From positions 12,283-45,395 of the forward strand of contig JAJTDO010000009.1 of assembly GCA_021300475.1 (NCBI GenBank): 33,113 nucleotides of DNA. Direction: 5' to 3'. A program made the translations under genes and the position numbers. Shown one piece after another: positions 11,303 to 32,017 of this stretch; position 1 is the first letter of the stretch; each line of letters begins with the position of its first letter. The notes under the pieces are model-generated. The model was given only the letters and a program-made list of their open reading frames with translations. It was not told the origin of the DNA and made no database searches. This stretch comes from Burkholderiales bacterium (GTDB lineage: Bacteria > Pseudomonadota > Gammaproteobacteria > Burkholderiales > Burkholderiaceae_B).

Positions 11303-11303
11303 G

Positions 11304-14247: not shown

Positions 14248-14258
14248 GCGGGACAGGC

Positions 14259-15544: not shown

Positions 15545-15572
15545 GAATTCGGTGCTGGATTTTCAAATATTT

Positions 15573-15589: not shown

Positions 15590-15733
15590 TTGCTTTTTTA
15601 GGCCGTAAACTTGATGAATTGAGACAAGCCTTGTTTGCAGGGCTTACTATTGTCTGCTTTTGTCTGTCGGCGTTTTTACTTGGTGTAAATTTAATTCAAG
15701 ATTTTTCGTCCGAATGACAATAGGAGATTTTCA

Positions 15734-16939
15734 ATGGCTGATGCCTACATATACGACGCGGTAAGAACACCCCGCGGCAAGGGAAAAAAAGATGGCAGCC
15801 TGCATCAGGCCACGCCTGTCTGGTTGATTCAAACTTTGCTGCGCGCACTGCAGACGCGCAACCATCTGGACACCTCTTTGGTCGATGACGTGGTGTTGGG
15901 GTGCGTCACACCCGTGGGCGAGCAGGGCGCTGACGTGGCCAGAACGGCTGTATTGGCCGCCGACTGGGCAGAGTCCGTGGCTGGTGTGACCTTGTCGCGT
16001 TTCTGCGCTTCCGGTTCCGAAGCGGTGAACCTGGCCGCAGCCAAGGTGATGAGTGGCATGGAAGACATGGTTGTGGCCGGTGGCATTGAGTCCATGAGCC
16101 GTTGGGCCATGGGCAGCGATGGCGGTGCGTGGGTGATGGATCCCTCTATCAATTCCAAGCTGAGTTTCATTCCTCAGGGTGTGAGTGCTGACTTGATTGC
16201 AACACTTGAAGGCTTTAGCCGTCACGATGTGGATTCGTATGCAGTTGAGTCGCAGCGCCGTGCGGCCAGCGCCCAAGCGGCGGGTCGTTTTGGCAAATCG
16301 ATTGTTCCGGTCAGGGACTTGAACGGTCTGATGATGCTGGACCGGGATGAAACCATCCGGGGTGAGGCCACCGTTGAGGGCCTTGGCAAACTTGATCCGT
16401 CTTTTGCAATGATGGGCGCCATGGGCTTTGATGCCACTGCCTTGGCCAAGTACACCACGGTCGAAAAAATCAACCACGTGCACCACGCGGGCAATTCGTC
16501 CGGCATTGTGGACGGTTCTGCGCTTATGCTGATCGGTTCAGCCGAGGCGGGTAAAAAAGCGGGTTTGAAGCCACGTGCCCGCATTCGTTCTTGTGCTGTT
16601 ATCGGTTCCGAACCCACCATCATGCTCACCGGTACAACACCGGCCTGCCACAAGGCCTTGCGCAAAGCCGGCATGTCGGCCGCTGACATTGACTTGTTCG
16701 AGATCAACGAAGCATTTGCAGTGGTTCCGATGAAAACCTCGCGTGACCTCGGTGTAAGCCTTGACCGCGTGAATGTGAACGGTGGTTCGATTGCCATGGG
16801 TCACCCACTGGGCGCCACCGGTGCCTTGATTCTGGGTGTGTTGCTTGACGAGTTGGAGCGTCAAAACAAGAGCACGGGTCTGGCGACGCTGTGCGTGGGT
16901 GCCGGTATGGGCATAGCGACCATCATTGAACGCGTTTGA
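15734..16939 (+). CDS. Acetyl-CoA C-acyltransferase (thiolase, FadA type)
   Basis: 401 residues. Thiolase active-site residues are all visible: nucleophile Cys91 in [10 protein letters not shown], His357 in GHPLGATGA and Cys387 in LCVGAGMG, plus INEAFAVVP. It cleaves 3-ketoacyl-CoA with CoA to release acetyl-CoA, the last step of beta-oxidation. A TAGGAG ribosome site lies just upstream of the ATG. It heads a plus-strand operon; the fadB-type gene starts 20 bases after its stop. Biosynthetic acetoacetyl-CoA thiolase is an alternative, but the gene context favours degradation. Confidence 0.92.
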
Positions 16940-16959
16940 AGGCTCAGGAGAATATTAAA

Positions 16960-19101
16960 ATGACAGCAGTGAAACTTGAATTGGGTGGCGATGGCATCGC
17001 AGTGATTACGCTGGACATGCCGGGTCGCTCCATGAATGTATTGAACGCCGAATTGACCGGTCCTTTTTTAGAGGCGCTCAAGCAGGTTGAGACAGACGCC
17101 AGCATCAAGGGTGCGATTCTGACCTCTGGCAAGAAGGAATTTTTGGCGGGTGCAGACCTGGATCAGGTCTTTGGCATTACCAATCCGCAGGACGCCTACG
17201 ATTTGGCTGAGGCTTTCAAGGCGCTGTTGCGTCGCATGGAAAAAACCACCAAGCCTTTTGTGGCTGCACTCAATGGCACCGCCTTGGGGGGGGGTCTTGA
17301 GTTGGCATTGGCTTGTAATTACCGCATTGCAATGAACGACCCGAAACTGAAGCTGGGTCTGCCGGAAGTCAAGCTGGGCTTGCTGCCCGGTGGCGGTGGT
17401 ACGCAGCGCCTGCCCCGTTTGGTGGGCATGCAGACCGCTTTGCAATTGATGGGCGAAGGCAAGGAGTTGCGTGTTGAAGAGGCCAAAGGCATGGGCTTGA
17501 TCAACGACATCGCTGCCAGCAAAGAAGAGATGATGGAAAAGGCACGGGCTTGGTGTCTGGCCAATCCATCGGTTCTACAGCCTTGGGACGAGAAAAAATT
17601 CCGTTATCCGGGTGGCGACAGCCGCACGCCGGCTGTGACGCAGATGATGGCAATTGCACCGGCCATGGCCAACGCCAAGGCACAGGGCAACTATCCGGCG
17701 ATCGGGCACATCATGTCCAGCGTTTGGGAAGGTGGCATCACTGACATTGACACAGGCTTGAAGGTTGAGTCCCGCTACTTCGCCGCGTGCGCGGTGTCTC
17801 AGGTTTCAAAGAACCTGATGACCTCGCTTTGGTATCAGCTCAACTCCATCAAGAAGGGGCAGTCGCGTCCGCGCGGGCCAGCCCAGTCTCAGGTGAAAAA
17901 GGTGGGCGTGCTGGGTGCAGGCATGATGGGCGCCGGCATTGCCTATGTCAGTGCCAAGGTGGGCATTGAGGTGGTGTTGCTGGACATGTCTCAGGAAGGT
18001 GCTGACAAGGGCAAGGATTATTCCCGCAACCTGATGGACAAAGCCTTGAAAAAAGGTCGCACCACGCAGCAAAAAATGGACGAGTTGCTGGGTCGCATTA
18101 CAGCCACCACATCGTATGAGGCTTTGGCCGGCTGTGATCTGGTGATTGAAGCGGTGTTTGAAGACCGCGGCATCAAAGCCGAAGTGACCAGAAAAACCGA
18201 GGCTGTGATTCCTGCCACTGCAGTGTATGCCTCCAACACATCCACTTTGCCGATCACAGGTTTGGCAACGTCGAGCGCACGCCCTGAGAATTTTATCGGT
18301 CTGCATTTCTTTTCTCCTGTGGACAAAATGCCGTTGGTTGAAATCATCATGGGCGATAAAACCTCGGATGAGACGCTGGCCAAAGGCTTTGACTATGTTC
18401 AGCAAATTGGTAAGACGCCGATTGTGGTTAATGACAGTCGCGGTTTCTACACCTCACGGGTGTTCGGCACCTATGTGATGGAAGGCGCCGCCTTGTTGAA
18501 AGAGGGCGTGCATCCGCGTTCCATCGAGGTGGCTGGTTTGAAATCCGGCATGCCCATGCCGCCGTTGGCACTGCACGATGAAGTGACGCTGAGCTTGTCT
18601 TTGCATGTCATGGATCAAACCCGCGCAGACTATGCCGCCGAAGGCAAGACATACACGCCCCACGTGGCTGAAGATGTTATTCGCACGCTGGTGAGCACGA
18701 AAAACCGTGTCGGTAAAAAAACCGGTCAGGGCTATTACGACTACAACGGCCGTGAAAAGTCGTTGTGGCCCGGATTGTCCGAGCTGTTCCCGTTGGCGGC
18801 CAACCAACCGAGTCAGCAGGAAATTATTGACCGCATGATTTTCGTGCAAGCCAATGAAACCGTGCGCTGCTATGAAGAAAAAGTGCTGCGCAGCGTGTCT
18901 GATGCCAACATTGGTGCCATTTTTGGCTGGGGCTTTGCGCCTCACCATGGCGGCCCTTTGCAGTTCCTCAATGCCTATGGCATTGAAAAGGCTGTAAAGC
19001 GTCTGAACGAACTGGCAGACAAGTATGGCGAGCGTTTCCGCCCTGCAGGTGTGTTGGTTGAGATGGCCAAAAAAGGCCAGACTTTTATGGATGCAGCGTA
19101 A
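16960..19101 (+). CDS. 3-hydroxyacyl-CoA dehydrogenase / enoyl-CoA hydratase (FadB/FadJ type)
   Basis: From the ATG at 16960 (CAGGAG ribosome site at 16945-16950) the protein has 713 residues. The enoyl-CoA hydratase domain (about 1-190) has the oxyanion motif GTALGGGLELALAC with catalytic Glu114, and Glu136 in GLPEVKLG. The dehydrogenase NAD loop VGVLGAGMMGAG starts near residue 315, and the catalytic His lies near 449 in IGLHFFSP. It carries out the hydration and NAD-dependent oxidation steps of beta-oxidation. Oddity: codons for the three glycines are written as a run of nine G (17286-17294). A racemase-like gene begins directly at its stop codon. Confidence 0.94.
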   Translation: MTAVKLELGGDGIAVITLDMPGRSMNVLNAELTGPFLEALKQVETDASIKGAILTSGKKEFLAGADLDQVFGITNPQDAYDLAEAFKALLRRMEKTTKPFVAALNGTALGGGLELALACNYRIAMNDPKLKLGLPEVKLGLLPGGGGTQRLPRLVGMQTALQLMGEGKELRVEEAKGMGLINDIAASKEEMMEKARAWCLANPSVLQPWDEKKFRYPGGDSRTPAVTQMMAIAPAMANAKAQGNYPAIGHIMSSVWEGGITDIDTGLKVESRYFAACAVSQVSKNLMTSLWYQLNSIKKGQSRPRGPAQSQVKKVGVLGAGMMGAGIAYVSAKVGIEVVLLDMSQEGADKGKDYSRNLMDKALKKGRTTQQKMDELLGRITATTSYEALAGCDLVIEAVFEDRGIKAEVTRKTEAVIPATAVYASNTSTLPITGLATSSARPENFIGLHFFSPVDKMPLVEIIMGDKTSDETLAKGFDYVQQIGKTPIVVNDSRGFYTSRVFGTYVMEGAALLKEGVHPRSIEVAGLKSGMPMPPLALHDEVTLSLSLHVMDQTRADYAAEGKTYTPHVAEDVIRTLVSTKNRVGKKTGQGYYDYNGREKSLWPGLSELFPLAANQPSQQEIIDRMIFVQANETVRCYEEKVLRSVSDANIGAIFGWGFAPHHGGPLQFLNAYGIEKAVKRLNELADKYGERFRPAGVLVEMAKKGQTFMDAA

Positions 19102-20214
19102 ATGGTGGCGAGCCTGAACAGGCCCGCCATGCTGGCCGGCCTCAAAGTGGTGGATCTGACAAGAAATTTGCCAGGTCCGTTTGCCACCTTGATGTTGGCC
19201 GACATGGGCGCTGAGGTTATGAAAGTGGAGCCGCCCCAAGGCGACGAGGCACGTTTGATGCCGCAGTTGTTCGAGGCGGTCAATCGCAACAAAAAGGGCT
19301 GCCGGCGGGACATCAAAAAACCTGCCGATCTATCAGAGCTGAAACGATTGATTGAAGGTGCCGATGTATTGGTGGAAGGTTTCAGGCCCGGTGTGCTGGA
19401 GCCTTTTGGCCTGAGCTATGCAGATTTGTCTGCCGTGAATCCGAAGTTGGTGATGTGTTCCATCACGGGCTACGGGCAAACGGGCTCTTGGGCGAACCGT
19501 GCCGGACACGACATCAACTTCATGGCAATGTCCGGCCTTTTGGACCAGTTGCGCACGCCCGAGGGTGAACTGGCAATGCCAAATGTGCAATTTGGTGACC
19601 TGCTGGGCGGCAGCGCGATGGCGGTGGTGGGTTTGTTGGCTGCTGTCATTGATGCGCGGGCTACGGGTCTGGGTCGACACGTGGACATCAGCATGACGCA
19701 CAGTTTGTTGCCGCATGCGGTGGGGCCATTCGGTTTCGCTCAGATGTGGGAGCAGTTCGGCCAAGTCGATGTGCCCTCCAACGAAGATTTGTTGGGCGGC
19801 GGCCTGCCTTGCTATGGTATTTACAAAACAAGCGACGGCAGATACCTGGCTGTAGGCGCTTTAGAATACAAATTCTGGGAAGCTGCAAGCCGGGCTTTCG
19901 GGCATGCGCAATGGGCTGATATTCATTGGCAACGCGGTGTTATGCCGCAATTGCCAGCGTCCAAAAGTTTGAAGAAAATGGTCGCAGACCTTGTTGCCAG
20001 CAAGCCTTTGGCGCATTGGGCCGAAGTTTTTTCTGAAGTCGATGCGTGCGTCACTCCGGTGCTGACACTCAAGGAGGCCATGGCTCACCCCTTGTTTGAA
20101 AACCGCGCAGTGTTGCGAGAGCAGGTGGAAAAATCATCTAAAGAGGTGGTATCGTTGGGGCATCCGATTGAATTTTCGGACTATAAAGTTGAGGTGCGCC
20201 AAAAAGCGCCCTAA
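19102..20214 (+). CDS. Alpha-methylacyl-CoA racemase-like CoA transferase family III protein
   Basis: 370 residues of the CaiB/BaiF fold, starting GLKVVDLTRNLPGPFATLML. Residues that align with the catalytic set of alpha-methylacyl-CoA racemase are retained: His136 (AGHDINF), Asp166 (FGDLLGGS) and Glu255 (GALEYKFW). This points to racemisation of 2-methylacyl-CoA rather than CoA transfer, and would let methyl-branched acyl chains enter beta-oxidation. The ATG follows the fadB-type stop with no gap (TAAATG), so translation is likely coupled. A true CoA transferase remains possible because the two activities share a fold and an aspartate. Confidence 0.85.
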   Translation: MVASLNRPAMLAGLKVVDLTRNLPGPFATLMLADMGAEVMKVEPPQGDEARLMPQLFEAVNRNKKGCRRDIKKPADLSELKRLIEGADVLVEGFRPGVLEPFGLSYADLSAVNPKLVMCSITGYGQTGSWANRAGHDINFMAMSGLLDQLRTPEGELAMPNVQFGDLLGGSAMAVVGLLAAVIDARATGLGRHVDISMTHSLLPHAVGPFGFAQMWEQFGQVDVPSNEDLLGGGLPCYGIYKTSDGRYLAVGALEYKFWEAASRAFGHAQWADIHWQRGVMPQLPASKSLKKMVADLVASKPLAHWAEVFSEVDACVTPVLTLKEAMAHPLFENRAVLREQVEKSSKEVVSLGHPIEFSDYKVEVRQKAP

Positions 20215-20255
20215 GAAAATCGACACCCAATCGACAAATACAGAGGAGACACCGT

Positions 20256-22013
20256 ATGTCGAGCACCGCCGTGCCAGCCACTTTTGGAGGCGGGCAGTTC
20301 GCTTCTGAACAAGCCCGTGAATTGTTTGAAAGCCGTTTCTGGCAAAAATCCTACCCTGAGGGCACTCCAAAAGAGATCGGCCCGCCAAAGCACGCTGGTA
20401 TTTTGGAAGTGCTGGAAGCGTCTATCGACCAATTCGCCGACCGGGTTGCCTTTGTATCCGCCGGGGTTGAAATTACCTATGAGGAAGTGGGTAAAAAAGC
20501 CACGGCGTTTGCGGCGTATTTGCAAAGCAAGGGTGTTAAAAAAGGTGATGTGGTTGCGGTCATGCTGCCCAATTGCTTTCAGTTCCCAGTTTGTATTATT
20601 GGAGCCATGAAGGCGGGCGCAATATTCACTGCGGTCAATCCGCTGTACACCCCGCGAGAGTTGAATCATCAGTTGAAAGACTCGGGTGCGCAAACCATTG
20701 TGGTGTTTGAAAGTTTTGCACACACGCTGCAACAATCGCTGGAAGGCACACAGGTTCGCAACATTGTGGTGACGCAACTGGGCGACTTGCTCGGTGGCGC
20801 CTTGAACATCAAGGGCCGTGTCATTAACTACGTTTTGCGCAACGTCAAAAAGATGGTGCCTGAATATGAGTTGCCCAACGCGGTCTGGATTCGCGATGCC
20901 TTGTCTGAAGGTGCTTCCCTGCCATTGAACAAAGCAAGCAGCAACATTGAAGACATTGCCTTGCTGCAGTACACCGGTGGCACCACCGGCTTGTCCAAAG
21001 GTGCCATGCTGACCAATTTCAGCTTGCTCTCCAACATGGAACAAGGCATGACCTTCATCAAGCCAGCGCTTGGCGAGGGCGACCACACCATACTCACCTT
21101 GCTGCCGCTCTACCATATTTACGCGATGGCGGTGAATTGCATGACCTTCATGATCTTGGGTGCCCGCAACGTTCTCATTGCCAATCCGCGCGATATTTCA
21201 CTGGTGGTTAAAACCATCAAGAATGAAAAAATCAGTACGCTGACGGCGGTGAATACCTTGTTCAATGCCTTTATGGAAAACGAGGATTTCCGCAACCGCG
21301 ATTTCTCTGATTTGAAGTTCGCAATGTCTGGCGGCATGGCTTTGCAAAAAGCCATTGCAGAGCGTTGGCACACCCTGACAGGCGTACCGATCGTGGAAGG
21401 TTACGGTATGACTGAAACCTCCCCGGTTATTTCCGTACCGCCCCTGTTTGGTGTTAATTTGCCGGTTTTCCGCGGCAATGTGGGTTTGCCCATTCCCGGT
21501 TGTGATGTTCGTTTGCGCCGGACAGACGGTTTGTGGGCGGATTTGAACGAACCTGGGGAAATTTGCATTCGTGGTCCACAGGTTATGAAGGGTTACTGGA
21601 ACCGGCCTGACGCAACCGCTGAGATGATCGATGCAGATGGCTGGTTGGCCACTGGAGATATCGGTGAAATGGATGCCGACGGATATCTCAAGATTGTGGA
21701 CCGTAAAAAGGACATGATCATTGTGTCCGGGTTTAACGTGTTCCCCAATGAAATTGAAGATGTTGTGGCGATGCACCCGGGCGTTCTGGAGTGCGGAGCC
21801 GTTGGCGTACCCGATGAAATTACGGGTGAGCAGGTCAAGATTTGCATTGTGAAGCGCGACCCTTCCTTGATGCCGAAAGACATTATTGAGCATTGCCGCA
21901 AACACCTGACCGGTTACAAAGTGCCGAAGTTTGTTGAGTTCTGGCCGGAAATCCCTAAAACTCCAGTTGGCAAAGTGCTTCGCCGCGAATTGCGGGTGAA
22001 GAAGCCAAGCTGA
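20256..22013 (+). CDS. fadD: Long-chain fatty acid-CoA ligase
   Basis: 585 residues of the AMP-forming adenylating family. The P-loop motif YTGGTTGLSKG lies at about 239-249. It also has VEGYGMTETSPV, the hinge and A8 region TGDIGEMDADGYLKIVDRKK and the C-terminal catalytic lysine in KTPVGKVLRREL. It activates free fatty acids to acyl-CoA for the enzymes encoded just upstream. A GAGGAG ribosome site precedes the ATG. It ends the four-gene beta-oxidation operon. Its probable terminator has been split by the inserted element starting at 22058. Confidence 0.93.
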   Translation: MSSTAVPATFGGGQFASEQARELFESRFWQKSYPEGTPKEIGPPKHAGILEVLEASIDQFADRVAFVSAGVEITYEEVGKKATAFAAYLQSKGVKKGDVVAVMLPNCFQFPVCIIGAMKAGAIFTAVNPLYTPRELNHQLKDSGAQTIVVFESFAHTLQQSLEGTQVRNIVVTQLGDLLGGALNIKGRVINYVLRNVKKMVPEYELPNAVWIRDALSEGASLPLNKASSNIEDIALLQYTGGTTGLSKGAMLTNFSLLSNMEQGMTFIKPALGEGDHTILTLLPLYHIYAMAVNCMTFMILGARNVLIANPRDISLVVKTIKNEKISTLTAVNTLFNAFMENEDFRNRDFSDLKFAMSGGMALQKAIAERWHTLTGVPIVEGYGMTETSPVISVPPLFGVNLPVFRGNVGLPIPGCDVRLRRTDGLWADLNEPGEICIRGPQVMKGYWNRPDATAEMIDADGWLATGDIGEMDADGYLKIVDRKKDMIIVSGFNVFPNEIEDVVAMHPGVLECGAVGVPDEITGEQVKICIVKRDPSLMPKDIIEHCRKHLTGYKVPKFVEFWPEIPKTPVGKVLRRELRVKKPS

Positions 22014-22057
22014 GCTTTCATTTCAAGGCTGGTTTGTTAGAAGAAAGCCTCGGTTAT

Positions 22058-22087
22058 ACCCAAGCCGTTCTTGTTTCGTGTTGCTAA
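22058..22087 (+). repeat. Left terminal inverted repeat, 30 bases
   Basis: Begins ACCCAAGCCGTTCTTG and runs to GTTGCTAA. It is the exact reverse complement of the right repeat. Sequence identity stops on both sides of the 30 bases. A further AAAGCC block, eight bases outside each end, is also inverted and probably belongs to the target site. Confidence 0.9.
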
Positions 22088-22103
22088 GAAATTGATTCAC
22101 CTG

Positions 22104-22134
22104 CTCCTCATGATTAACGTCATGAGGAGTTTTT
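22104..22134 (+). terminator. Intrinsic terminator inside the element, facing away from fadD
   Basis: CTCCTCATGA, loop TTAACG, TCATGAGGAG gives a perfect ten-pair stem, followed by TTTTT on the plus strand. It would stop transcripts coming out of fadD before they run antisense through the tnpB-like gene. On the minus strand it forms the same hairpin directly after the tnpB-like stop codon, but without a T-run. Confidence 0.85.
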
Positions 22135-22135
22135 A

Positions 22136-23995
22136 TTAGGCAGGAATCAACTTCAAATCAACCGCACAGCTGGCTTGTCGTGCTATGCTGCGCACCGTCT
22201 CCTCTATTCCCTTTTCAGGTTCAATATCCGCCACGACAGATATTGGCAAGGTGGTGGCGACCTGAGAAACAATCAGTTCTCGTAGATTTCTTTGCCACAA
22301 AAACCGATGTTGTCCCAAGGCCAGAGAAACAGTCCTCCATGTAAGCCCATCCGCCGCGCTCTTGCTCTGCTTTGCGCTGTACGGCTGGCCGTGAAGACCG
22401 AGTTTCTCTTTAAACAACTTCACCCCAAATTCATTGGAGCCCATTTCTCGTCGCTTGTACGTCTGTCCGTACAGTGCTTGTCTGGCAATCCAGTGAGAGG
22501 CAGCCTCGTCCACGGATGCTCTAGTCAAATAACCATACTTGGCGAATCCGCCTACGCTTGAGTAGCACGGATTTACAAAGTAAAGTCCGATGCCGTTTTC
22601 ACGGCAGTTTTTCTGCACCATCTCCTTGAACTTGCTACTGGCAAGCGAAGACAAAATCGCATTAAATTTACGACCTTTCGCATCAACGTAGGAGGCTGTT
22701 ACCTTGGCTTTGGTATTGGAGAAATCCAGGTTTTCAATCGCCATCGCCACGTTGTACTTAAGCGCTATTTGAGCCAGCCGCTTGGCAACCGTACCGACTT
22801 GAACTGACACGCTGCCTGAAGGCTCATTCCGAAGAGACCAGGGGATAAAACCTTGTTGGCCAGCTTCCAGGTTTCCGTCAGGTTTGACTACTGACCATGC
22901 CACGCCTTTAGCATTGAAGTCCAACCCAAGCGCGCCGCGTTCTCGCGTTGAGTGTGCGCTAGGCGCTGCTGTATTAACAGATATTTGAAGGTGGTATTTC
23001 CGCTCACCGTCGTTATCCCTTATGACGATTTTGGAGGTCATCGGTACTTTGCCAGACAGCGCTTGAAGATGTTGTCTTGCTTTGGACAAGCCTGAGGCTT
23101 TGTCCAAGTGTCCGCTGAAATCTACATTGGGTATTTCAATGAAACGCGCTTTCATTCGAAGATTGCAGCACTTAGGTGATTTTCCATTCAATACATCTTG
23201 GGCTGTTTGCTCTGCCAGCTCTTGCATTCTGACTTTTGCTTGTGAATCAGTCAGCCGGATACGTAAAACGTTTGAATCTGGATGCCATTGCACCTCGGGA
23301 TTGCCACACGGGGCGTCGGCACGCCCAATCGACACCAGTTGATTATGCCGACGCAAGTTCCACTCTGCTCTCCAACTTTCGTAAGAATCGAAGATGCTGT
23401 CCTTGTTATTCATCGGATTTTGCGCAAGCAGCCTCTTGGAACCAAAGCAAACTGAAACTTTGCCCTCGTTCAATTGCTCAGTTAGTTCAAGTAACTTGCG
23501 CTCTTTGTGCACGAGTCCCTTTTTCTTCATCGCAAGCCATCTGCATTTCCTCGCAATTTTGTCTTTAAGCGACCGTATATCAGATAAAGTATCAACGAAG
23601 CGCTTGGTCTTTTTTGAGATTACCGCAGGTGCAAGCTCCCCGGCTAACTGTTGCTTCGACTCCAGTTGCTTTGCGAAAGACTTCAAAGCCCTGTTTGCAT
23701 CTTCAATCGCTTCTTTTCGTGCTTTGATTCCAGCTTCAAGTTTGGAATTAAGGAACTTATCTGCTTCCAGTTGGCGCTTGTAGAGCATTTCTGCAACATT
23801 TTGTGCGGAGCCTACTTGCGCAGAGGTAAGTCCGAACTCCCGTTGAAGCAGGTAATAGGTTTCAGAGGAAGTCAGGCCATCGCGAAACTGGCAGGCAAAA
23901 GCCTGTCTAACCGCCTTCCCGTGAGTAGCACAAAGCTCAGAAATCAAAGATTCCTGAGCCTTATTCAGCCGGAGGCGAGTTTCGTAAGTGATCAA
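22136..23995 (-). CDS. Large TnpB-related RuvC-like protein (IS200/IS605 accessory protein relative)
   Basis: 619 residues, about 200 more than a standard TnpB. A TnpB-style N-terminus (ITYETRLRLNKAQESLISEL) is followed by a long charged helical insert (about 75-180). The RuvC core then appears: Asp359 in GLDFNAKGVAWSVV, Glu421 in VAMAIENLDF, and SVDEAASHWIARQAL with Asp496. The CxxC zinc ribbon normally found before the third motif is absent; NPCYSSVGGFAKYGYL stands there instead. A tail of about 120 residues follows. The start is TTG at 23995: no ATG fits, a stop lies six codons upstream, and no good ribosome site is visible. TnpB is an RNA-guided nuclease; activity here is unproven. Confidence 0.82.
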   Translation of the reverse strand: MITYETRLRLNKAQESLISELCATHGKAVRQAFACQFRDGLTSSETYYLLQREFGLTSAQVGSAQNVAEMLYKRQLEADKFLNSKLEAGIKARKEAIEDANRALKSFAKQLESKQQLAGELAPAVISKKTKRFVDTLSDIRSLKDKIARKCRWLAMKKKGLVHKERKLLELTEQLNEGKVSVCFGSKRLLAQNPMNNKDSIFDSYESWRAEWNLRRHNQLVSIGRADAPCGNPEVQWHPDSNVLRIRLTDSQAKVRMQELAEQTAQDVLNGKSPKCCNLRMKARFIEIPNVDFSGHLDKASGLSKARQHLQALSGKVPMTSKIVIRDNDGERKYHLQISVNTAAPSAHSTRERGALGLDFNAKGVAWSVVKPDGNLEAGQQGFIPWSLRNEPSGSVSVQVGTVAKRLAQIALKYNVAMAIENLDFSNTKAKVTASYVDAKGRKFNAILSSLASSKFKEMVQKNCRENGIGLYFVNPCYSSVGGFAKYGYLTRASVDEAASHWIARQALYGQTYKRREMGSNEFGVKLFKEKLGLHGQPYSAKQSKSAADGLTWRTVSLALGQHRFLWQRNLRELIVSQVATTLPISVVADIEPEKGIEETVRSIARQASCAVDLKLIPA

Positions 23996-24110
23996 AGCGT
24001 GGGTGTAGTTTTACTGTTAATAAAAACAGTGTAGCACAGGCATTTACGCGAAAGATTTATGTTAGCAGTAGGTGGCTCACAACCCTTGTTGAAAGCGGGA
24101 CTTACGGAAA

Positions 24111-24140
24111 TTAGCAACACGAAACAAGAACGGCTTGGGT
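24111..24140 (-). repeat. Right terminal inverted repeat, 30 bases
   Basis: TTAGCAAC through GGCTTGGGT, the exact reverse complement of the left repeat. It lies 115 bases upstream of the tnpB-like start. The region between (23996-24110) holds no other gene; a small CTGTT/AACAG hairpin at about 24013-24031 is the only structure I see. Confidence 0.9.
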
Positions 24141-24220
24141 TATGCAACGGCTTTTATTCATCCAAAAACAGCTTGGCGCAGTATTACTGACATTCCCCAC
24201 TTAACGATGGCAAAGATTCC

Positions 24221-25468
24221 ATGATTCCAATAACGCTTTCTGACGCTCTGACCCTGCCTTGCGGCGCTGTGTTGCCTAACCGAATTGCAAAATCTGCGAT
24301 GAGCGAAGCGCTCGCCACCATTGATCACAAGGTGTCCGATCAACTGGTCCGTTTGTATGAGGCCTGGTCTGAGGGCGGGTCTGGTTTGTTGATTTCCGGC
24401 AACGTGATGATCGACAGAAAAGCCTTGGGCGAACCTAAAAATGTGGTGGCTGAAGACGAGAGCGACCTTGACGGTTTGAAGCGCTGGGCCCGTGCCGGTA
24501 CCAAGGCGGGTAACCACTTCTGGATGCAGATCAATCACCCGGGCAAGCAGTCGCCCAAAGACTTGAATGAAACAGCGGTGGCGCCTTCTGCCATTCCCCT
24601 GAAAAAAGAGATTCGCCTGTTTTTCAGGGATGCCCGCGAACTGACAGAAACCGAAATCCTGGATCTGATCCAACGCTTTGGAAATGCAGCCAGACTGGCA
24701 AAGCAAGCGGGTTTCACCGGTGTTCAGATTCACTCGGCCCACGGCTATTTGGTCAGCCAGTTTTTGTCGCCCTTGCACAATCAGAGAACAGACCGCTGGG
24801 GTGGTTCACTGGAAAACCGCATGCGTTTTCTGATGGAAGTTTACGGCGCGATGCGCGCTGCTGTCGGTCCCGATTTTCCTGTGGGCGTTAAGCTCAACAG
24901 CGCCGATTTTCAAAAGGGCGGTTTTGCAGTGGATGAAGCCATTGAGGTGGCCAAGGTGCTCGATGCCGCGGGCATTGACATGATTGAAGTCTCCGGTGGC
25001 ACCTACGAGTCTCCCGTTGTGGCAACGGGTGTCAAGCCTGACCAGAAAGCCAGTACGAAGGCGCGGGAAGCCTACTTCGCTGAATATGCCCGACTCATCA
25101 GAAATGCGGTGAAGACGCCGGTGATGCTGACGGGTGGTTTCAGAACCGACGAGGCCATGATTGAAGCCCTCACCGAAGGTGATTGTGATGTGGTGGGTCT
25201 GGCGCGCAGCCTGGTGCTGGATTTGCAAGCACCGGCTAAAATGTTGCGCGGTGAGTCTTTCCTAAGTCTGGTCAAACCCCTGAAAACAGGCATTAAGGCC
25301 ATTGACTCGACGGGCATGTTGGAAATCTGGTGGTATGGTCGCCAAATGACCCGCATTTCGAACGGCAAACCTCCTCGCCCTTCTGAATCACCCATTTATG
25401 CATTTGTTGCAACGCTGCTGACCAAAGGCGCGCAAGCGTGGGCAACTCGCAAGTTACGCGCTAACTGA
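24221..25468 (+). CDS. NADH:flavin oxidoreductase, Old Yellow Enzyme family
   Basis: A 415-residue TIM-barrel flavoenzyme. The substrate-binding histidine pair lies in IHSAHGYLVSQFLSP (His171, His174), followed by the conserved NQRTDRWGGSLENR motif. MQINHPGKQSP and TGGFRTDEAM contribute to FMN binding. The absence of a C-terminal cysteine cluster and second nucleotide domain separates it from 2,4-dienoyl-CoA reductase FadH, so it is a short-form OYE acting on some activated alkene. It is the first gene after the inserted element and is followed 17 bases later by an SDR gene. It may once have been co-transcribed with fadD. Confidence 0.88.
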   Translation: MIPITLSDALTLPCGAVLPNRIAKSAMSEALATIDHKVSDQLVRLYEAWSEGGSGLLISGNVMIDRKALGEPKNVVAEDESDLDGLKRWARAGTKAGNHFWMQINHPGKQSPKDLNETAVAPSAIPLKKEIRLFFRDARELTETEILDLIQRFGNAARLAKQAGFTGVQIHSAHGYLVSQFLSPLHNQRTDRWGGSLENRMRFLMEVYGAMRAAVGPDFPVGVKLNSADFQKGGFAVDEAIEVAKVLDAAGIDMIEVSGGTYESPVVATGVKPDQKASTKAREAYFAEYARLIRNAVKTPVMLTGGFRTDEAMIEALTEGDCDVVGLARSLVLDLQAPAKMLRGESFLSLVKPLKTGIKAIDSTGMLEIWWYGRQMTRISNGKPPRPSESPIYAFVATLLTKGAQAWATRKLRAN

Positions 25469-25485
25469 TTTCGAGGTAATGGAAT

Positions 25486-26277
25486 ATGACAAATCGTAGA
25501 AACTGGGCATTGGTCACCGGTGCATCCGGCGGCATAGGCAAAGACATTGCATTGTTGCTGGCGCAGCGAGGTTACGACCTTATTTTGGTGGCGCGAACCG
25601 AAGACAAATTGCAGGCCCTGGCGCAGGAAATTGAAACCAGCCACCAGCGTACCGCACGCGTTATTGTCCAGGATTTGGGCGTGCACGGCAGTGTGGCTCA
25701 ATTGATGAACCGCATTGGCAGCGATGTATCGGACATTGAGGTATTGGTTAATAACGCCGGTTTTGGCTTGAACGGTGCGTTTGCAGATACAGAGGCCCAC
25801 CGCTTGTCGGAAATGGTGCAGTTAAATGTCACGTCCCTCATGGAATTGACCCGGGCAGTGCTGCCCAGCATGCAGGCCCGGCGCTGCGGCTACGTCATGA
25901 ATATCGCGTCGGTTGTGGCGTTTCAGCCCTGCCCGCATTTTGCTGTTTATGGCGCAACCAAGGCATTTGTATTGTCCATGACCGAGGCGCTGCAGTTGGA
26001 GTTGTCGGGCAGCGGCGTGAGTGCAACAGCGGTCTGTCCGGGCTCAACAGCCACCGAGTTTCACCAAGTGGCCGGCAGCGACCGTTCCCTGGTTGCAAAG
26101 CTGATGGACAGTTCCGCCTCTGTGGCGCAGCAGGCGGTCAAGGCAACCTTTGCCCGCCGTTCTTCAGTGGTGACCGGTTTGATGAACAAACCCATGCCGC
26201 TGATTAATCGCCTTGTTCCCAGAATGTGGATGGCCGCTGGCGTGGGTCAGTTATTCAAAAAGGCAGCGCGGCGCTGA
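25486..26277 (+). CDS. Short-chain dehydrogenase/reductase
   Basis: 263 residues of the classical SDR family: NAD(P)-binding TGASGGIG (11-18), NNAG (89-92), catalytic Ser142, Tyr155 and Lys159 (YGATK). The arginine after LVA (LILVARTEDKL) suggests NADP preference. The C-terminal extension with a hydrophobic stretch resembles the DltE/YqjQ-like subgroup. Substrate cannot be told from sequence. It is likely co-transcribed with the OYE-type reductase, preceded by a GAGG ribosome site. Confidence 0.88.
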   Translation: MTNRRNWALVTGASGGIGKDIALLLAQRGYDLILVARTEDKLQALAQEIETSHQRTARVIVQDLGVHGSVAQLMNRIGSDVSDIEVLVNNAGFGLNGAFADTEAHRLSEMVQLNVTSLMELTRAVLPSMQARRCGYVMNIASVVAFQPCPHFAVYGATKAFVLSMTEALQLELSGSGVSATAVCPGSTATEFHQVAGSDRSLVAKLMDSSASVAQQAVKATFARRSSVVTGLMNKPMPLINRLVPRMWMAAGVGQLFKKAARR

Positions 26278-26320
26278 GTCGGCACTTGGCAAGCGCAATA
26301 AATCCTTGCTTTTTTTCTTG

Positions 26321-26347
26321 ATGCCGGCGTTATCAAAGCGCCGGCAT
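26321..26347 (+). terminator. Probable terminator hairpin after the SDR gene
   Basis: ATGCCGGCG, a nine-base loop, CGCCGGCAT form a strong nine-pair stem. The sequence after it (TTGTGCTTT) is only moderately T-rich, so termination may be partial. It lies 44 bases after the SDR stop and 49 before the coiled-coil gene. Confidence 0.55.
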
Positions 26348-26395
26348 TTGTGCTTTAATGTGTCGTTAGATTCAAGTTACTGTATGTGATCACCC

Positions 26396-26719
26396 ATGAC
26401 CGTAAAAGATTTGCCAGATCCTGAACTCAACAATATTCGGGTTATAGAGCAGCTGAAAAAAACCGTCAATAGCATGCGCTCTTCGTTGGAAGACGCGGAA
26501 GCGGAACATCGCAATGCCTTGGGGGTCGTTCGAGACACCAAAGACAACGAAATCCGCTACCTGCAAGCAACGGTGAGCACCATCAGGCAGCAATTGGAAG
26601 AAACCAACGCGCTGCGCCTGACTGAAGTGCAAGAACTTAAAAATGCTCACGAAGCTGAGCGAAAACAATTGCAGCAAACTATCGTAGAGTTGCGCGCAAG
26701 GCTGGAGACCAAAGCATGA
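26396..26719 (+). CDS. Small coiled-coil protein coupled to an adenylate cyclase
   Basis: 107 residues, almost wholly helical and charged, with heptad-like spacing of Leu/Ile/Val from about residue 10 to 105 (for example IRYLQATVSTIRQQLEETNA). There is no signal peptide, membrane segment or catalytic motif, and I do not recognise a family. The last bases overlap the next start as ATGA (26716-26719), so the two proteins are probably made together. A role in dimerising, scaffolding or localising the cyclase is inference. Confidence 0.75.
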   Translation: MTVKDLPDPELNNIRVIEQLKKTVNSMRSSLEDAEAEHRNALGVVRDTKDNEIRYLQATVSTIRQQLEETNALRLTEVQELKNAHEAERKQLQQTIVELRARLETKA

Positions 26720-29028
26720 CAGACATTGTTCTGGCAGAAAAAAAACGGGGCAAAACCCCGCCCGCCTTTAGAGGCAACCGGGGCGTTGTGAATCCTGAGT
26801 GGTTATTGTGGGTATTGACGCAAGTGTCTTCCCAAGATGGCCTGGACATGCAGTTGAGAACCGTGGTGGATTACGCGCGCGAAGCGGTGGGCGCCACCCG
26901 GGGCTCGCTGTTCATGTTCGATGACTCCACCAATGAGCTCTACACCCGCATTGCAGACGGCATGTATCGCCGCGAAATCAGAATTTCATCTGAGGCTGGT
27001 GTGGCCGGCAGCGTTTATACAACCGGGCAACCCAGCATTGTGCTGGACGTGAGCAAAGACCCCAGATTTCTGGCCGAGGTCGACAAGGAAACAGGGTTTG
27101 TCACCACAGACATGCTGGCTGTGCCTGTGCGCACCTTGCGTGGCAATGTCATTGGTGTGGCGCAGATGCTCAACAAGATGGAAGGGCAGTTTGACAAGCG
27201 CGACTTGGTCTTGATGGAAGCGCTGACGCAGAATGTCGCCATTGTTCTGCACGGCTCCACACAGCTTGAGGCCAGTGTCATGCGGCGCAAGCAGGAAAGC
27301 GAAATGCTGGATGTGGTGTCCGAGGCCTCAACGGAAATCCACTTGGGCCCCTTGCTCAACCGCATTATCGGAACAGTGTCGCGCATGTTGAATTGCGAGC
27401 GTTCAACCCTGTTTCTCAACGATCCTAAAACCAAGTTCTTGTATACCGAAGTGGGGCAGGGGTTGGGCGTTACGCGCATCCGCTTTCCCAACCACATGGG
27501 TATTGCCGGTGCGGTGTTTTCCACCAGCAAAACCATCAATATTCCCTACGCTTATGCAGATCTGCGCTTTAACCCGTCGTTTGACCGCCAAACCGGTTTC
27601 TTTACACGCTCCATACTGTGCGTACCGGTGGTCAACAAAAAGGGCGAAGTCATTGGCGTGACGCAGGCACTGAACAAAATTGGCGGTGTATTCACAGATG
27701 AAGACGAGCAGCGTCTCAGAGCGTTTACCGCGCAAATTGCAATTGCCCTGGAAAATGCCAAGCTGTTTGACGACGTACAAACGGTCAAGAACTACAACGA
27801 GTCCATGCTGGAAAGTATGAGCAATGGCGTGCTGACGGTAGACGACAAAGGTAACTTTGGTGCGGTGAATGCAGCGGCGCAAAAAATACTGCGCAAGCGC
27901 GGTGCCGACCTGATTGGTACCCCTGCCAGCGCATTTTTTGTAGAAGAAAATCAATGGGTCGCAGACTCTTTGGCCCGAGTTCAAAGCAGCGGCATGCAAG
28001 ACATTGTGATGGACGCTGAAATTTTGGTTAAAGGTGCCCGCGAGGGTGAAGTGCCTGAAAAAATGTCAGTAAACCTGACAGTGCAGACACTGAAGAACAA
28101 CAAGCAGGAAAACATCGGCAACCTGATGCTCATTGAAGACATCAGCAGTGAAAAGCGGGTCAAGGCCACCATGGCCAGGTACATGGACCCCGCACTGGCA
28201 GACAAGTTGATTGCCGGTGGAGAGGAAATACTGGGCGGTACTTCAAGCGAGGCCACGGTGTTGTTCTCCGACATCCGAAGCTTCACAACGCTTACAGAGC
28301 AACTGGGTCCGCAAGGCACGGTGGCGCTGCTCAATGAATACTTTACCCTGATGGTGGACTGCATTACCCACGAAGGTGGCATGCTGGATAAATTCATCGG
28401 CGATGCCATCATGGCCGTGTTCGGTACACCGTTCCCGCACGATGACGATGAAGACCGCTCGGTGCGTGCCGGTATTGAGATGCTTCGCAGTTTGAACCGT
28501 TTTAATGAAGAGCGTGCGCTCAAGGGCCTGATGGCTGTTGATATGGGTTTGGGCATCAACACGGACAACATCGTGTCGGGCAACATCGGTTCTCCAAAGC
28601 GCATGGACTACACCGTGATTGGTGACGGCGTGAATTTGGCTTCACGTCTGGAAGGCGCCTGCAAAACCTACAGCGCAAAAATGCTGATTTCGGAAAGAAC
28701 CTGGAAGTTGTTACGCGGCAGTTACCGCTGCCGTGAAGTGGACTGGGTGATTGTGAAGGGTAAAACCGAACCTGTGGGCATTGTTGAAGTGCTCGACTGG
28801 CACACCGAAGAGTCCTTCCCCAATGTAATGGACACCATAGGCTTGTGGAAAATGGGCTTGGACGCTTACCGCAGTGGTAACTTCAGCGATGCGAAGCACC
28901 GTTTTGAAGAGACACTGAAAGTAAACCCCAAAGACAAGCTCTGCTACACCTACATTGAGCGCTGCAACGATCTCATGGCCGAACCGCCCACTGATTGGGA
29001 CGGTATCTACACCATGAAGTCCAAGTAA
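26716..29028 (+). CDS. GAF-GAF-PAS class III adenylate cyclase
   Basis: 770 residues: two GAF domains (about 30-180 and 205-355), a PAS-like domain (about 365-475), a class III cyclase catalytic domain (about 510-690), and a C-terminal TPR-like segment (about 710-770). Catalytic residues are present: metal-binding Asp519 (LFSDIRSF) and Asp563 (KFIGD), adenine-selecting Lys559 and Asp631 (MDYT), and transition-state Asn640 and Arg644 (GDGVNLASR). This pattern predicts cAMP synthesis rather than cGMP. There is no membrane segment, so it should be a cytoplasmic sensor cyclase with unknown GAF ligands. It meets the hydrolase gene convergently across 24 bases. Confidence 0.92.
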   Translation: MTDIVLAEKKRGKTPPAFRGNRGVVNPEWLLWVLTQVSSQDGLDMQLRTVVDYAREAVGATRGSLFMFDDSTNELYTRIADGMYRREIRISSEAGVAGSVYTTGQPSIVLDVSKDPRFLAEVDKETGFVTTDMLAVPVRTLRGNVIGVAQMLNKMEGQFDKRDLVLMEALTQNVAIVLHGSTQLEASVMRRKQESEMLDVVSEASTEIHLGPLLNRIIGTVSRMLNCERSTLFLNDPKTKFLYTEVGQGLGVTRIRFPNHMGIAGAVFSTSKTINIPYAYADLRFNPSFDRQTGFFTRSILCVPVVNKKGEVIGVTQALNKIGGVFTDEDEQRLRAFTAQIAIALENAKLFDDVQTVKNYNESMLESMSNGVLTVDDKGNFGAVNAAAQKILRKRGADLIGTPASAFFVEENQWVADSLARVQSSGMQDIVMDAEILVKGAREGEVPEKMSVNLTVQTLKNNKQENIGNLMLIEDISSEKRVKATMARYMDPALADKLIAGGEEILGGTSSEATVLFSDIRSFTTLTEQLGPQGTVALLNEYFTLMVDCITHEGGMLDKFIGDAIMAVFGTPFPHDDDEDRSVRAGIEMLRSLNRFNEERALKGLMAVDMGLGINTDNIVSGNIGSPKRMDYTVIGDGVNLASRLEGACKTYSAKMLISERTWKLLRGSYRCREVDWVIVKGKTEPVGIVEVLDWHTEESFPNVMDTIGLWKMGLDAYRSGNFSDAKHRFEETLKVNPKDKLCYTYIERCNDLMAEPPTDWDGIYTMKSK

Positions 29029-29052
29029 GAAGACTAAAACACCGCAGTGGTG

Positions 29053-30234
29053 TCAGGCATCGCTGCGGGTTGACAACCATTGGGCCGTTTTCGGCCAGAT
29101 GGTGGCGGTGGCTTCCCTGCCACCGAGTATTCCGATGTGCCCACCGGCCCCGATAAAAAATTCTTTGTCTGCACTGGACACCAGCGGCATCATTGCCTTG
29201 CAGCAGGCGATGTTGGACAAACTGTCTTTCCGGCCCGCAATGCACAACAAATTCGATGTGATTTTTTCCAGATGAATAACATCACGGCCCACGGTGAAGC
29301 GCCCCTTGGCCGTTTCATTTTCAAGCCATACACTGGCGGTCCAGTCGCGTATGACCGCACCCGGATAGGCTTCCAGGTTGTCGATGAACGCAGCCTGATT
29401 GGCATGTTGCTCCACGTACTGGCGGTTTTCCAGATGCATGGCCAAATTCAGGTAACCCTTGATGCTAGACACCGGGTCCAACAATTTAAAACCAATGACA
29501 TTCACCCAGCCCGGCGCGTAGGCCAAAGAGGCCGGCAGCTTGCGTAAACTCAAGCGGGCCAGTTTCATCAGTTTGTTCATCTGTTTGAAGTTGCGCCCCA
29601 TGGCGCCGTTGGCGTAGCCGTCCACAGGTGTGCCCAGCGTAATCAGATTGCGAACATCGTTTTGTTCAGAGCCTGCTGCATACAAGGCGGCCAGCATGCC
29701 TCCCATGCTCCAACCGTGCAGCGACACCTGCGCTGCACCGCTGTTTTCCTTGACAGCGGCAATGCATTTTGGCAGCCAATCCTTGACGTAGGTTGATAGG
29801 GTTTGCGCTGCGTTTTTCAGACTGGGTTTGCCCCAGTCAATAAGATAGACATCGTGCCCGTGGGCCAGCATGTATTTGATGAAACTGCGGTTCGGAAACA
29901 AATCGTAAATCAGCATGTTTACGGCCAAAGGTGAAACAATTACCAGTGGAATGCCATGCTTTTTTTCAGCCACTGGCAGGGTTGAGTCTCCGAATGGAAT
30001 TTCAGTTTCAGTCAGCGGTTTGTAATGCCTGACTTGCGCCAACCCTTGGGTATAAACAATGTCGTAGGGCAACTGACCGGCCACCACCATGGTGTCGGTT
30101 TTGAAAAAACGGTCACGTGCATTTCGTGTCACCGTCTTGATGCGCTTAGCGCTGGGTTTTTTTATCGGTAGCATCGCTGTGTTTCCCAATCTGTGATCTT
30201 CAGGGGCGGACAACGCCGCTTGTGATTTTTCCAT
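29053..30234 (-). CDS. Alpha/beta hydrolase related to PHA synthase
   Basis: 393 residues. The fold and the segments DVYLIDWGKPS, SLHGWSMGGMLAALYAA and LGTPVDGYA resemble PhaC. However, the lipase box is GWSMG with Ser176 where true PHA synthases have Cys. Asp337 (GRKDSLS) and His366 (GGHIGIL) complete a hydrolase triad. A serine suggests an esterase, lipase or acyltransferase rather than a polymerase; this is inference. Its ATG lies 35 bases inside the acyl-CoA synthetase gene. An alternative ATG at 30174 would avoid the overlap and drop 20 residues. The two genes form an operon, so an acyl-CoA or ester substrate is likely. Confidence 0.82.
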   Translation of the reverse strand: MEKSQAALSAPEDHRLGNTAMLPIKKPSAKRIKTVTRNARDRFFKTDTMVVAGQLPYDIVYTQGLAQVRHYKPLTETEIPFGDSTLPVAEKKHGIPLVIVSPLAVNMLIYDLFPNRSFIKYMLAHGHDVYLIDWGKPSLKNAAQTLSTYVKDWLPKCIAAVKENSGAAQVSLHGWSMGGMLAALYAAGSEQNDVRNLITLGTPVDGYANGAMGRNFKQMNKLMKLARLSLRKLPASLAYAPGWVNVIGFKLLDPVSSIKGYLNLAMHLENRQYVEQHANQAAFIDNLEAYPGAVIRDWTASVWLENETAKGRFTVGRDVIHLEKITSNLLCIAGRKDSLSNIACCKAMMPLVSSADKEFFIGAGGHIGILGGREATATIWPKTAQWLSTRSDA

Positions 30235-32017
30235 GTAACTCGGGTGTCAGTGGAACATAGCCGAGTTTTTTGTCGGTCAGCACATAAACCGGCTCTGTTA
30301 TTACCTGCAAATCAAAGCCGTCTTTTTTCAGTTGGCCTTTTTGGTATTTGAAGGTACCCGTGGTGTCTTGTGTGTCCCTGATGCGCATGAACACGGGAAC
30401 TGCGTAGGCGGGCAGCGTGGTCTGCAGTTGATGGGCGATCATGGCGCCGTCAAACTTGAAGCCGGGCTTCAAGGTGATGGCAGCCATGCCGGCCCGGCCA
30501 TCGGTGCCCGGAATGGCGACACCATAGACCACTGCGTGTTCCAGACTGTCCACCATGGCAAGCGCACCTTCCACTTCAGAGGTGGCCACGTTTTCGCCTT
30601 TCCAGCGGAACGTGTCGCCCAAGCGGTCAACGAACTGAATGTGTTGCCAGCCTTGCGCGCGCACCAGATCGCCGGAATTAAACCAGCAGTCTCCTTTTTT
30701 AAATACATTGCGAAGCAGCTTTTTTTCATTGGCTTCTTCGTCGGTGTAGCCGTCGAAGGGTTGGCGGTTACTGATCTCGCTGATCAGCAAACCCACTTCA
30801 CCCGACTTTACACGCGACATGCGACCGTTGTCTTTTCGAACCGGTTCTTCCGTGACGGGGTCGCATTGAACAATGGCAAAAGGCAGCGGTGTAAAGCCCA
30901 CGGTGTTGCGTTGTCCAAATACATTGATGAAGCCGATATTTGATTCGCTGGCACCGTAAAACTCGTAAATTTTTTCGATGCCGAAACGAGACTCGAATTT
31001 GTCCCAAAGTTCCGGTCTAAGACCGTTGCCGACTATCAAACGAACTTCGTGGTTCTGATCGTCCAGACTGGCTGGCCGGTTCAACAGGTAGCGCAGCAAT
31101 TCCCCAATGTAGCAAAATGCAGTGGCTTCATAGTGTCTGATGCGATTCCAGAACTGGCTGGCCGAGAATTTTTTGTCCAAGGCCAGTGTGGCGCCACACG
31201 ACAATACGCAACCCCAGCTAACAGTCAGTGCATTGTTGTGGTAGAGCGGCAAACAGCAATAAAACACGTCTTCGTGTTTTAGGCGTATGGCACTGCTAAA
31301 ACCGTTCATTGCACTGAGCCAGCGGTAGTGGGTCATTACCGATGCCTTGGGCATGCCGGTGGTGCCAGAGGTAAAAATGTAGAAGCAGGCATCACTGGCC
31401 ACAATTTCCTTGGTGATGCGGGGGTTGGTCTCAGGCTTGTTTTTTAGCAGTTTCAACAGGTCTTCAAAACCTGCAGGGCAGCGATCGCTGGGGTTCAGCG
31501 CCAACCACAAAGGCGTTGTTTTGTTGATCAGTTTGTTAAATTGCCCCAACTCCTTGAGTTGCGGTGTGCATTCATGCCCCACCACCACGCATTTGGGTTT
31601 GATCAGGTTCAAGCTGTGTTGCAGCGTTTCGTTTTTTTGGTTGGTGTTGATCATGCCGGCCACCGCGCCCAACTTTACAGTCGCCAGTACACAAGCGATC
31701 AGTTCCGGGCGGTTTTCCAGCAAAATGGCGACGCAGTCGCCCTTTCGAACGCCTTGCAAGGTCAGTGTATGAGCCATCTGGTTGGCCATCACATTGAGCT
31801 CTCGGTAAGAAAACGAAAGGTCGTTGAATTTTAGCGCCGGGTGGTCGGGAAAGCGGTCTACGCAATGCTCAAATACTTTGCCCAGCGATTGGCGACTGGT
31901 TCGGCGCAACGTCACCAGATCAAATAGATTGCTTGCGATCTGCTGCCAGTCGGGGGCCAGCGCCAAGGCGCCTTCGGCCAAGTCCAGCAGTCTGATTTGC
32001 TGCTTTTTATCGGTCAT
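30200..32017 (-). CDS. Long-chain acyl-CoA synthetase, FATP/FadD6-like
   Basis: 605 residues of the AMP-forming family. The ATP-binding motif FTSGTTGMPKAS is at about 215-226, followed by the YGASES motif. The FATP/very-long-chain type signature reads GDLVRAQGWQHIQFVDRLGD and then TFRWKGENVATSEVE. The C-terminus has TFKYQKGQLKKDGFD with a catalytic-type lysine. It activates long or very long fatty acids, and differs clearly from the FadD at 20256-22013. An SD-like GGAGA stands before the ATG but is part of an inverted repeat that could hide it. The downstream hydrolase gene overlaps its end. Confidence 0.9.
   Translation of the reverse strand: MTDKKQQIRLLDLAEGALALAPDWQQIASNLFDLVTLRRTSRQSLGKVFEHCVDRFPDHPALKFNDLSFSYRELNVMANQMAHTLTLQGVRKGDCVAILLENRPELIACVLATVKLGAVAGMINTNQKNETLQHSLNLIKPKCVVVGHECTPQLKELGQFNKLINKTTPLWLALNPSDRCPAGFEDLLKLLKNKPETNPRITKEIVASDACFYIFTSGTTGMPKASVMTHYRWLSAMNGFSSAIRLKHEDVFYCCLPLYHNNALTVSWGCVLSCGATLALDKKFSASQFWNRIRHYEATAFCYIGELLRYLLNRPASLDDQNHEVRLIVGNGLRPELWDKFESRFGIEKIYEFYGASESNIGFINVFGQRNTVGFTPLPFAIVQCDPVTEEPVRKDNGRMSRVKSGEVGLLISEISNRQPFDGYTDEEANEKKLLRNVFKKGDCWFNSGDLVRAQGWQHIQFVDRLGDTFRWKGENVATSEVEGALAMVDSLEHAVVYGVAIPGTDGRAGMAAITLKPGFKFDGAMIAHQLQTTLPAYAVPVFMRIRDTQDTTGTFKYQKGQLKKDGFDLQVITEPVYVLTDKKLGYVPLTPELHGKITSGVVRP

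Follow-up and report, generated by a model that had tools for sequence, protein, structure and literature searches.

A transposase-less insertion carrying a TnpB relative between perfect 30-nt terminal inverted repeats in a Burkholderiales bacterium

The inserted segment and its locus

The stretch of DNA analysed here, hereafter the window, comprises 33,113 nt of a Burkholderiales bacterium (Burkholderiaceae_B; GCA_021300475.1, contig JAJTDO010000009.1, 12,283-45,395 of the forward strand), and within it a segment of 2,083 bp is bounded by a perfect terminal inverted repeat (TIR) of 30 nt and carries, as its gene, a relative of tnpB (Table 1). Three further open reading frames (ORFs) of at least 100 aa lie between the arms, all of them overlapping tnpB on the opposite strand. 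The original prediction, made from the letters alone, had described these repeats, this gene and the lack of a transposase, and the description stands: tblastn with three TnpA queries found no IS607 TnpA in 20059-26140. The arms, 100% complementary and 2,023 nt apart, form the longest perfect inverted repeat of the window, the runner-up measuring 16 nt, and with a scoring scheme (match +1, mismatch -2) applied equally to the window, to its relatives and to mismatched controls they reach 30, whereas among 250 mismatched upstream/downstream flank pairs of relatives the median was 9 and no score exceeded 15.

A single further genome of the genus was compared (G001, 66% complete); there, fadD ends and the FMN oxidoreductase begins on the same contig, the aligned parts being separated by 305 bp without a tnpB, as against 2,227 bp in the window. 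Because the flanking genes are thus adjacent in the congener without tnpB, the window segment is an insertion, with TIR ends and without a transposase; the spacer of the congener does not align with that of the window, so the exact empty site is unreadable. That the inverted repeat should be meaningless, a product of chance or of assembly, is scarcely credible, as its only support is that the genome is a draft of 118 contigs, whereas a perfect repeat of 30 nt stands against a next best of 16 and flanks exactly the region missing from the congener. The recent movement suggested by the original prediction is compatible with the identical arms and with this absence; the several copies with the same ends at different loci that it named as proof of an element are not present in the genome, in which the element and its TIR each occur once.

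Table 1. Positions of the features discussed (coordinates of the window, except in the last row, where they are those of the loci named)
Feature	Position	Strand	Basis
Left TIR arm (right end, RE, relative to tnpB); presumed 3' end of guide-RNA scaffold	22058-22087	+	Inverted-repeat search; fold
Right TIR arm (left end, LE, relative to tnpB)	24111-24140	-	Inverted-repeat search
Candidate 3-bp target-site duplication TAT, left copy; inside direct repeat GGTTAT 22052-22057	22055-22057	+	Weak, about 1 in 64 by chance
Candidate 3-bp target-site duplication TAT, right copy; the arm shares 3 bases with direct repeat GGTTAT 24138-24143	24141-24143	+	Sequence
tnpB-related gene, 619 aa, TTG start; RuvC D359, E421, D496 present	22136-23995	-	ORF, NCBIfam, alignment, AlphaFold model, structure matches
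Putative right-end guide RNA (reRNA) region, tnpB 3' end and RE	22058-22237	-	Fold -58.7 kcal/mol, z -3.9, 0/200 shuffles as stable
Terminator-like perfect 10-bp hairpin, then five T (+ strand), shortly after the tnpB stop codon	22104-22134	+	Sequence, folds
Flanking gene, long-chain-fatty-acid--CoA ligase (fadD-like); stop 44 bp from the element	20256-22013	+	ORF list, Pfam, NCBIfam
Flanking gene, NADH:flavin oxidoreductase (old-yellow-enzyme family)	24221-25468	+	ORF list, Pfam, NCBIfam
IS607-linked inverted repeats	L009 3281-3297/5700-5716; L010 3274-3292/5736-5754; L011 2942-2958/5445-5461		

The TnpB-related protein and its IS607-linked family

The protein does not reach the curated cut-offs of the NCBIfam TnpB families (NF040570, 34.1 bits with a cut-off of 100; TIGR01766, 30.4 with a cut-off of 32), for which reason it is designated here a TnpB relative; no Pfam family matched it at E 0.001, and a sequence search of solved structures gave no relative. 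Its AlphaFold model, for which 48 sequences were aligned, has a mean predicted local distance difference test score (pLDDT) of 82.4, and was matched by Foldseek to Cas12m2 (E 2e-7) and Cas12f (E 3e-7), and by VIA-align to Cas12k, Cas12f and ISDra2 TnpB with Z from 16.9 to 13.0 (the last over 286 residues), values that may be inflated by long helices. The predicted fold is therefore Cas12/TnpB-like, and is accompanied by a complete D-E-D site: D359 corresponds to D in 47 of the 48 aligned sequences, E421 to E in all 48, and at the third position, as read from the alignment, the window protein (D496) shares its D with the cyanobacterial and Aquificota rows, most others having H. In this same alignment, the third catalytic D is apparently replaced by H in most Proteobacterial members of the family, and the zinc-finger cysteines typical of TnpB are not evident.

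A scan of the genome_contigs collection by one peptide pattern returned 151 relatives, of which 80 were kept, the best full-length one among these being 27% identical to the window protein; the plasmid collection gave 16 records, and among 200 relatives and 399 genomes of the order only two genomes besides its own (G167 and G196) contain a match. No close relative appeared in viral_contigs and none was found in phages, and Rfam yielded a single sub-threshold match. An IS607-type TnpA was detected nearby by tblastn in 43 of 86 loci (the 80 of genome_contigs, five from plasmids, and the window), including the three from which the queries were taken, and several annotated plasmid copies adjoin an "IS607 family transposase."

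The inverted-repeat test could be applied to 74 of the 86 loci, the other 12 being dropped for short flanks. With TnpA (n = 42) the score does not exceed 16; without it (n = 32) the window reaches 30, five Rhizobiales loci 25, 22, 21, 18, and 18, and an Aureimonas locus 16. In the IS607-linked relatives on Pseudomonas and Photobacterium plasmids, inverted repeats of 13-14 bases flank the tnpA-tnpB unit, at its two ends or close to them, so that the notion of TnpB elements without inverted repeats has to be softened: in the IS607-linked relatives they are present, although short and imperfect, in agreement with PMC6188088. The same paper describes IS607 without TIRs and without duplications. 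On the Calothrix plasmid2, a cyanobacterial tnpB with no detected TnpA lies between imperfect inverted repeats (L012, 3245-3268/5295-5318, 24 nt, 83% complementary), and is possibly another tnpA-less element.

These figures bear on the chief rival of the interpretation proposed below, according to which the window element would be a derivative of the IS607 type that has lost tnpA and is moved by a serine recombinase in trans, its TIR being an exceptionally complete form of the imperfect repeats found near the ends of IS607 elements. The linkage of half of the loci to IS607, together with the short repeats (score 13-14) that span both tnpA and tnpB in L009, L010 and L011, would be as expected in that case, as would the GGTTAT found at both window junctions, which fits either a 3-bp TAT duplication or the GG dinucleotide core that IS607 uses, according to PMC6188088. 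However, a crossover at GG would place the repeat 4 bp from one end but flush at the other, requiring a chance match of 4 bases, the score of 30 is far from the maximum of 16 with TnpA, and a related clade without TnpA has duplications of 8 bp, which IS607 does not make. On balance, we regard this derivation as unlikely.

A Rhizobiales/Aureimonas clade with inverted repeats and target-site duplications

In a tree of 80 rows, obtained by a quick method with Shimodaira-Hasegawa-like approximate likelihood ratio (SH-aLRT) supports, twelve Rhizobiales rows and Aureimonas form a single fork (support 99), enclosed by a larger one (support 95) that also holds TnpA-bearing rows (Endozoicomonas, Gemmobacter). 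This clade has no IS607-type TnpA nearby, and many of its members have TIRs of about 25 nt; the Rhizobiales TIR is GGGTATTCGTCACnAAnGGTTGA, with which one Aureimonas arm agrees at 12 of 23 positions (shuffle p 0.011) and the other at 14 (p 0.0005). Thirteen Rhizobiales candidates were considered for target-site duplications (TSDs), and two with only one recognisable arm (L032 and L103) were dropped. In five of the remaining 11 (L071, L033, L041, L106, and L108) the 8 bp outside the TIRs are identical (8/8), while the match is weaker in L056 (7/8) and L164 (6/8), and falls to 2, 3, 4, and 2 of 8 in L035, L042, L036, and L081. No 8/8 match appears at any other shift from -6 to +6, and none of 110 left-right pairs across elements reaches 7/8. 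The Aureimonas element (L058) has a TIR of 22/25 and a duplication, GTGATGCG, of 8/8.

As 8-bp duplications are present and IS607 makes none, this clade has moved by a TIR/TSD mechanism, and as its elements contain no transposase, it would have done so in trans. The mobilising enzyme is presumably of the DDE class, judging from the combination of TIR and 8-bp duplication and not from a protein. It is thus highly probable that this lineage of tnpB was captured by a TIR/TSD element, and the capture by a TIR-type element moving in trans that the original prediction had proposed gains support through the duplications of the related clade, the part concerning trans movement being inferred. The Rhizobiales relatives are present in several copies, G874 having two and plasmid pRlX5 carrying tnpB at three places, and the same TIRs delimit a gene-less miniature inverted-repeat transposable element (MITE) of 230 bp on R. 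leguminosarum pRL23b4 (L118, 5002-5231), with GGATCACC on both sides.

Other short gene-poor pairs of Rhizobiales TIRs have a MITE-like appearance, on Sinorhizobium medicae pSymA (L117/L120, 5001-5779, 779 bp) and at L153 (2382-2787, 406 bp); among these short pairs a clear 8-bp duplication is found only in L118, and inspection of L153 revealed none. In L151 (G878:C6:297500-306500, 1967-7500), about 5.5 kb separate an outer TIR (1967, +) from the right TIR of the tnpB element (7478, -), and hold a gene for a C-5 cytosine DNA methylase (2299-4365), a UvdE-like ORF, and tnpB; this may be a larger element with the methylase as passenger. Empty sites for L106, L108, and L118 were sought in plasmids and none was found. 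Joining the flanks of L106 gives a frame of 349 codons, the halves of which match no Pfam or NCBIfam family at cut-offs, nor any other plasmid, and the restored frame is uninformative.

The tnpB gene is under purifying selection in the clade, as the ratio of nonsynonymous to synonymous rates (dN/dS) is 0.157, 0.173, 0.172, and 0.141 in four pairs; the copy in L108 has an internal stop. The last 180 nt of 10 of the 13 Rhizobiales elements (L103, L106, and L108 being omitted as too different or reversed) can be given a common fold of 45 pairs that runs into the TIR. Changes on both sides occur in 8 of these pairs, compared with 5.0 after shuffling (9/500), and in 18 cells compared with 7.1 (0/500); the covariation score is 0.227 compared with 0.158 (0/500), and the best helix, between columns 94-104 and 113-122, has five pairs with two-sided changes. 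These values are tempered by the further pair types, which are no higher than in the shuffles (25 vs. 24.4, 242/500), and by kinship among the sequences, which can push such counts above shuffles without any structure. In L071, L033, and L035 the stop codon falls at nucleotide 124 of the 180, so that much of the structure lies inside the coding end of tnpB, and a pairing is predicted between the final CCC of the TIR and a GGG further upstream, which is near-invariant and hence proves nothing; in ISXfa1, according to PMC10711439, a contact between the last bases of the scaffold and an upstream loop is required. Taken together, the comparison points to a conserved structured RNA extending from the 3' end of tnpB to the right end in the clade, as would be expected of a guide RNA.

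The corresponding region of the window also folds strongly (Table 1), a stability that owes much to the hairpin at 22104-22129. This folding, which includes the right-end arm, and the condition of a single copy with no partner, would suit a tnpB that stands alone or has been domesticated, for instance as a regulator of transcription, and whose repeats would be relics or would serve some other purpose, such as marking the limits of its RNA or terminating it. Nuclease-dead regulators lose the D-E-D residues, whereas these are complete in the window protein; furthermore, the element is absent from the locus in the congener, and the two arms are identical, though just one of them could lie in the RNA end, so that we consider such a role quite improbable. 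A split terminator was also sought by joining the flanks of the window element, and a terminator-like hairpin does result, but with z -1.1 and 1,100 of 2,000 random joins as stable it does not exceed chance and was not used.

Search for the mobilising transposase and proposed origin

The longer relative with a DDE transposase and the same TIR, which according to the original prediction would name the mobilising partner, was not found in genome_contigs, viral_contigs, 121 genomes of the family, plasmids, or IS982 loci. The window TIR has no match as an exact 30-mer in genome_contigs, none as a 20-mer in viral_contigs, and only chance-level matches in plasmids (E 9); with up to 3 mismatches, the family genomes yielded its own copy and a single arm (3 mismatches) in G017, and a backwards control pattern likewise matched in 3 genomes. 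The Rhizobiales TIR is absent from 398 genomes of the phylum (up to 1 mismatch) and from viral_contigs, and occurs in 31 plasmid records. Seven of these plasmid matches were opened (H17, H19, H20, H21, H23, H24, and H29), with no transposase annotated in the five annotated stretches, the other two lacking annotation. In eight genomes, the matches whose surroundings were examined sit at tnpB elements, fragments, short inverted pairs, and unrelated genes, and Pfam gave no transposase in nine ORFs neighbouring TIR matches, only part of the neighbours having been scanned.

Three families were examined as possible partners, chosen on their end signatures. IS1595 (PF12762) is present in two of eight Rhizobium genomes and ISKra4 (NF033572) in one of nine, and in neither case do the ends match. 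IS982 (NF033520) is matched in 53 of 200 relatives at E 0.001, one over the cut-off, and no inverted repeat listed for the 30 loci kept starts like the window TIR; matches there to 13 bases of this TIR, with up to 3 mismatches, are as frequent as chance predicts. The TIR of Aureimonas presumably resembles the ends of the IS6 family, a likeness that the plasmid search did not confirm.

With these results, the window segment can be considered, with somewhat better than even confidence, a non-autonomous element, in which a distant IS607-linked TnpB lies between long TIRs and is moved in trans, most likely by a DDE enzyme; in other words, it probably represents a separate instance of what is seen in the Rhizobiales/Aureimonas clade, with less certainty than the latter. 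This level of confidence is a balance between a TIR that is longer and more perfect than that of any relative, together with absence from the congener, and a short duplication, the lack of a second copy, and an unsure position in the tree. The points that weigh on the opposite side are that no transposase was found with either the window or the Rhizobiales TIR; that the element is single-copy, without a second locus having the same TIR; that its duplication is of 3 bp rather than 8, and possibly due to chance; that the window TIR is unrelated to that of Rhizobiales (9 matches at best); and that the protein, on an end branch of 2.79, is not grouped with the TIR clade, its placement being flagged as unsure by the program. 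Because of this long branch, the history of the clade is not directly transferable to the window copy. Nor is there a motif resembling a target-adjacent motif (TAM) in 12 left flanks, whose strongest columns are a G at the first duplication base and an A four bases before the element.

If we accept this interpretation, a distant member of the IS607-linked TnpB family would have been taken up between long TIRs, and a transposase recognising these, most likely of the DDE class, would act in trans to move the element, while TnpB would presumably still work as an RNA-guided nuclease. Transcription of the 3' end of tnpB and of the right-end TIR would give the scaffold of a guide RNA, with the flanking DNA as guide, so that the TIR would have the double role of transposase site and RNA end. 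For the window copy, we infer the movement in the manner of the clade, the DDE transposase in trans, and the activity of TnpB and of its RNA.

Neither IS200/IS605 nor IS1341-type elements are known to have a TIR. IS1341 types consist of tnpB alone, and both kinds resemble the element described here in that a guide RNA is presumed at the 3' end of their tnpB; unlike IS200/IS605, however, the window element has a TIR and, among its ORFs, no gene for a Y1 transposase (there is no space for a second gene beside tnpB, and no Y1-specific search was made). The IS607-family elements provide its nearest protein relatives, from which it differs in the lack of TnpA and the perfect TIR, and the related clade in its 8-bp duplications. 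With MITEs and passenger-gene transposons moved in trans, these elements share TIRs without a transposase, the 230-bp MITE having the TIRs of the Rhizobiales tnpB elements and an 8-bp duplication, although here the cargo is an intact and selectively maintained gene for an RNA-guided nuclease. A similar layout is found in the Fanzor1 and Fanzor2* transposons, where a TnpB homologue, alone or with a transposase, lies between TIRs with TSDs, some of these elements having no transposase of their own yet sharing TIRs with autonomous ones (PMC3627910). Those, however, are eukaryotic or viral, whereas the elements described here are bacterial, with proteins of an IS607-linked bacterial TnpB family; and while the TIR and TSD of Fanzor are predicted to form part of the reRNA (PMC10711439), a duplication of variable sequence, as found here, cannot be a fixed part of the scaffold.

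A broader proposal, which we hold by a slight preference, is that bacterial TnpB would have left its IS200/605 and IS607 partners and entered TIR/TSD (DDE-type) elements more than once, on one occasion in an ancestor of the Rhizobiales/Aureimonas clade and on another in the Burkholderiales lineage of the window, with the TIR doubling as the 3' end of the scaffold, in a bacterial counterpart of the capture of Fanzor by eukaryotic transposons. If so, the TIR clade and the second candidate in the window would mean that bacterial TnpB is not restricted to the kinds of element in which it is known to travel, and would offer a bacterial system for testing how the guide RNA of an RNA-guided nuclease is fitted to a new transposase, as well as whether RNA-guided cutting helps an element that is cut and pasted through double-strand breaks to persist. 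No paper on bacterial TnpB in TIR/TSD elements turned up in the full-text literature, whose coverage excludes most subscription journals, so that novelty is unproven.

The remainder of the window (4817-20214 and 25486-32017) has the appearance of ordinary chromosome, with no further mobile element among the ORFs scanned, and carries genes for cytochrome bc1, prmC, glutamyl-tRNA reductase, an ammonium transporter, beta-oxidation, and a GAF/adenylate cyclase protein.
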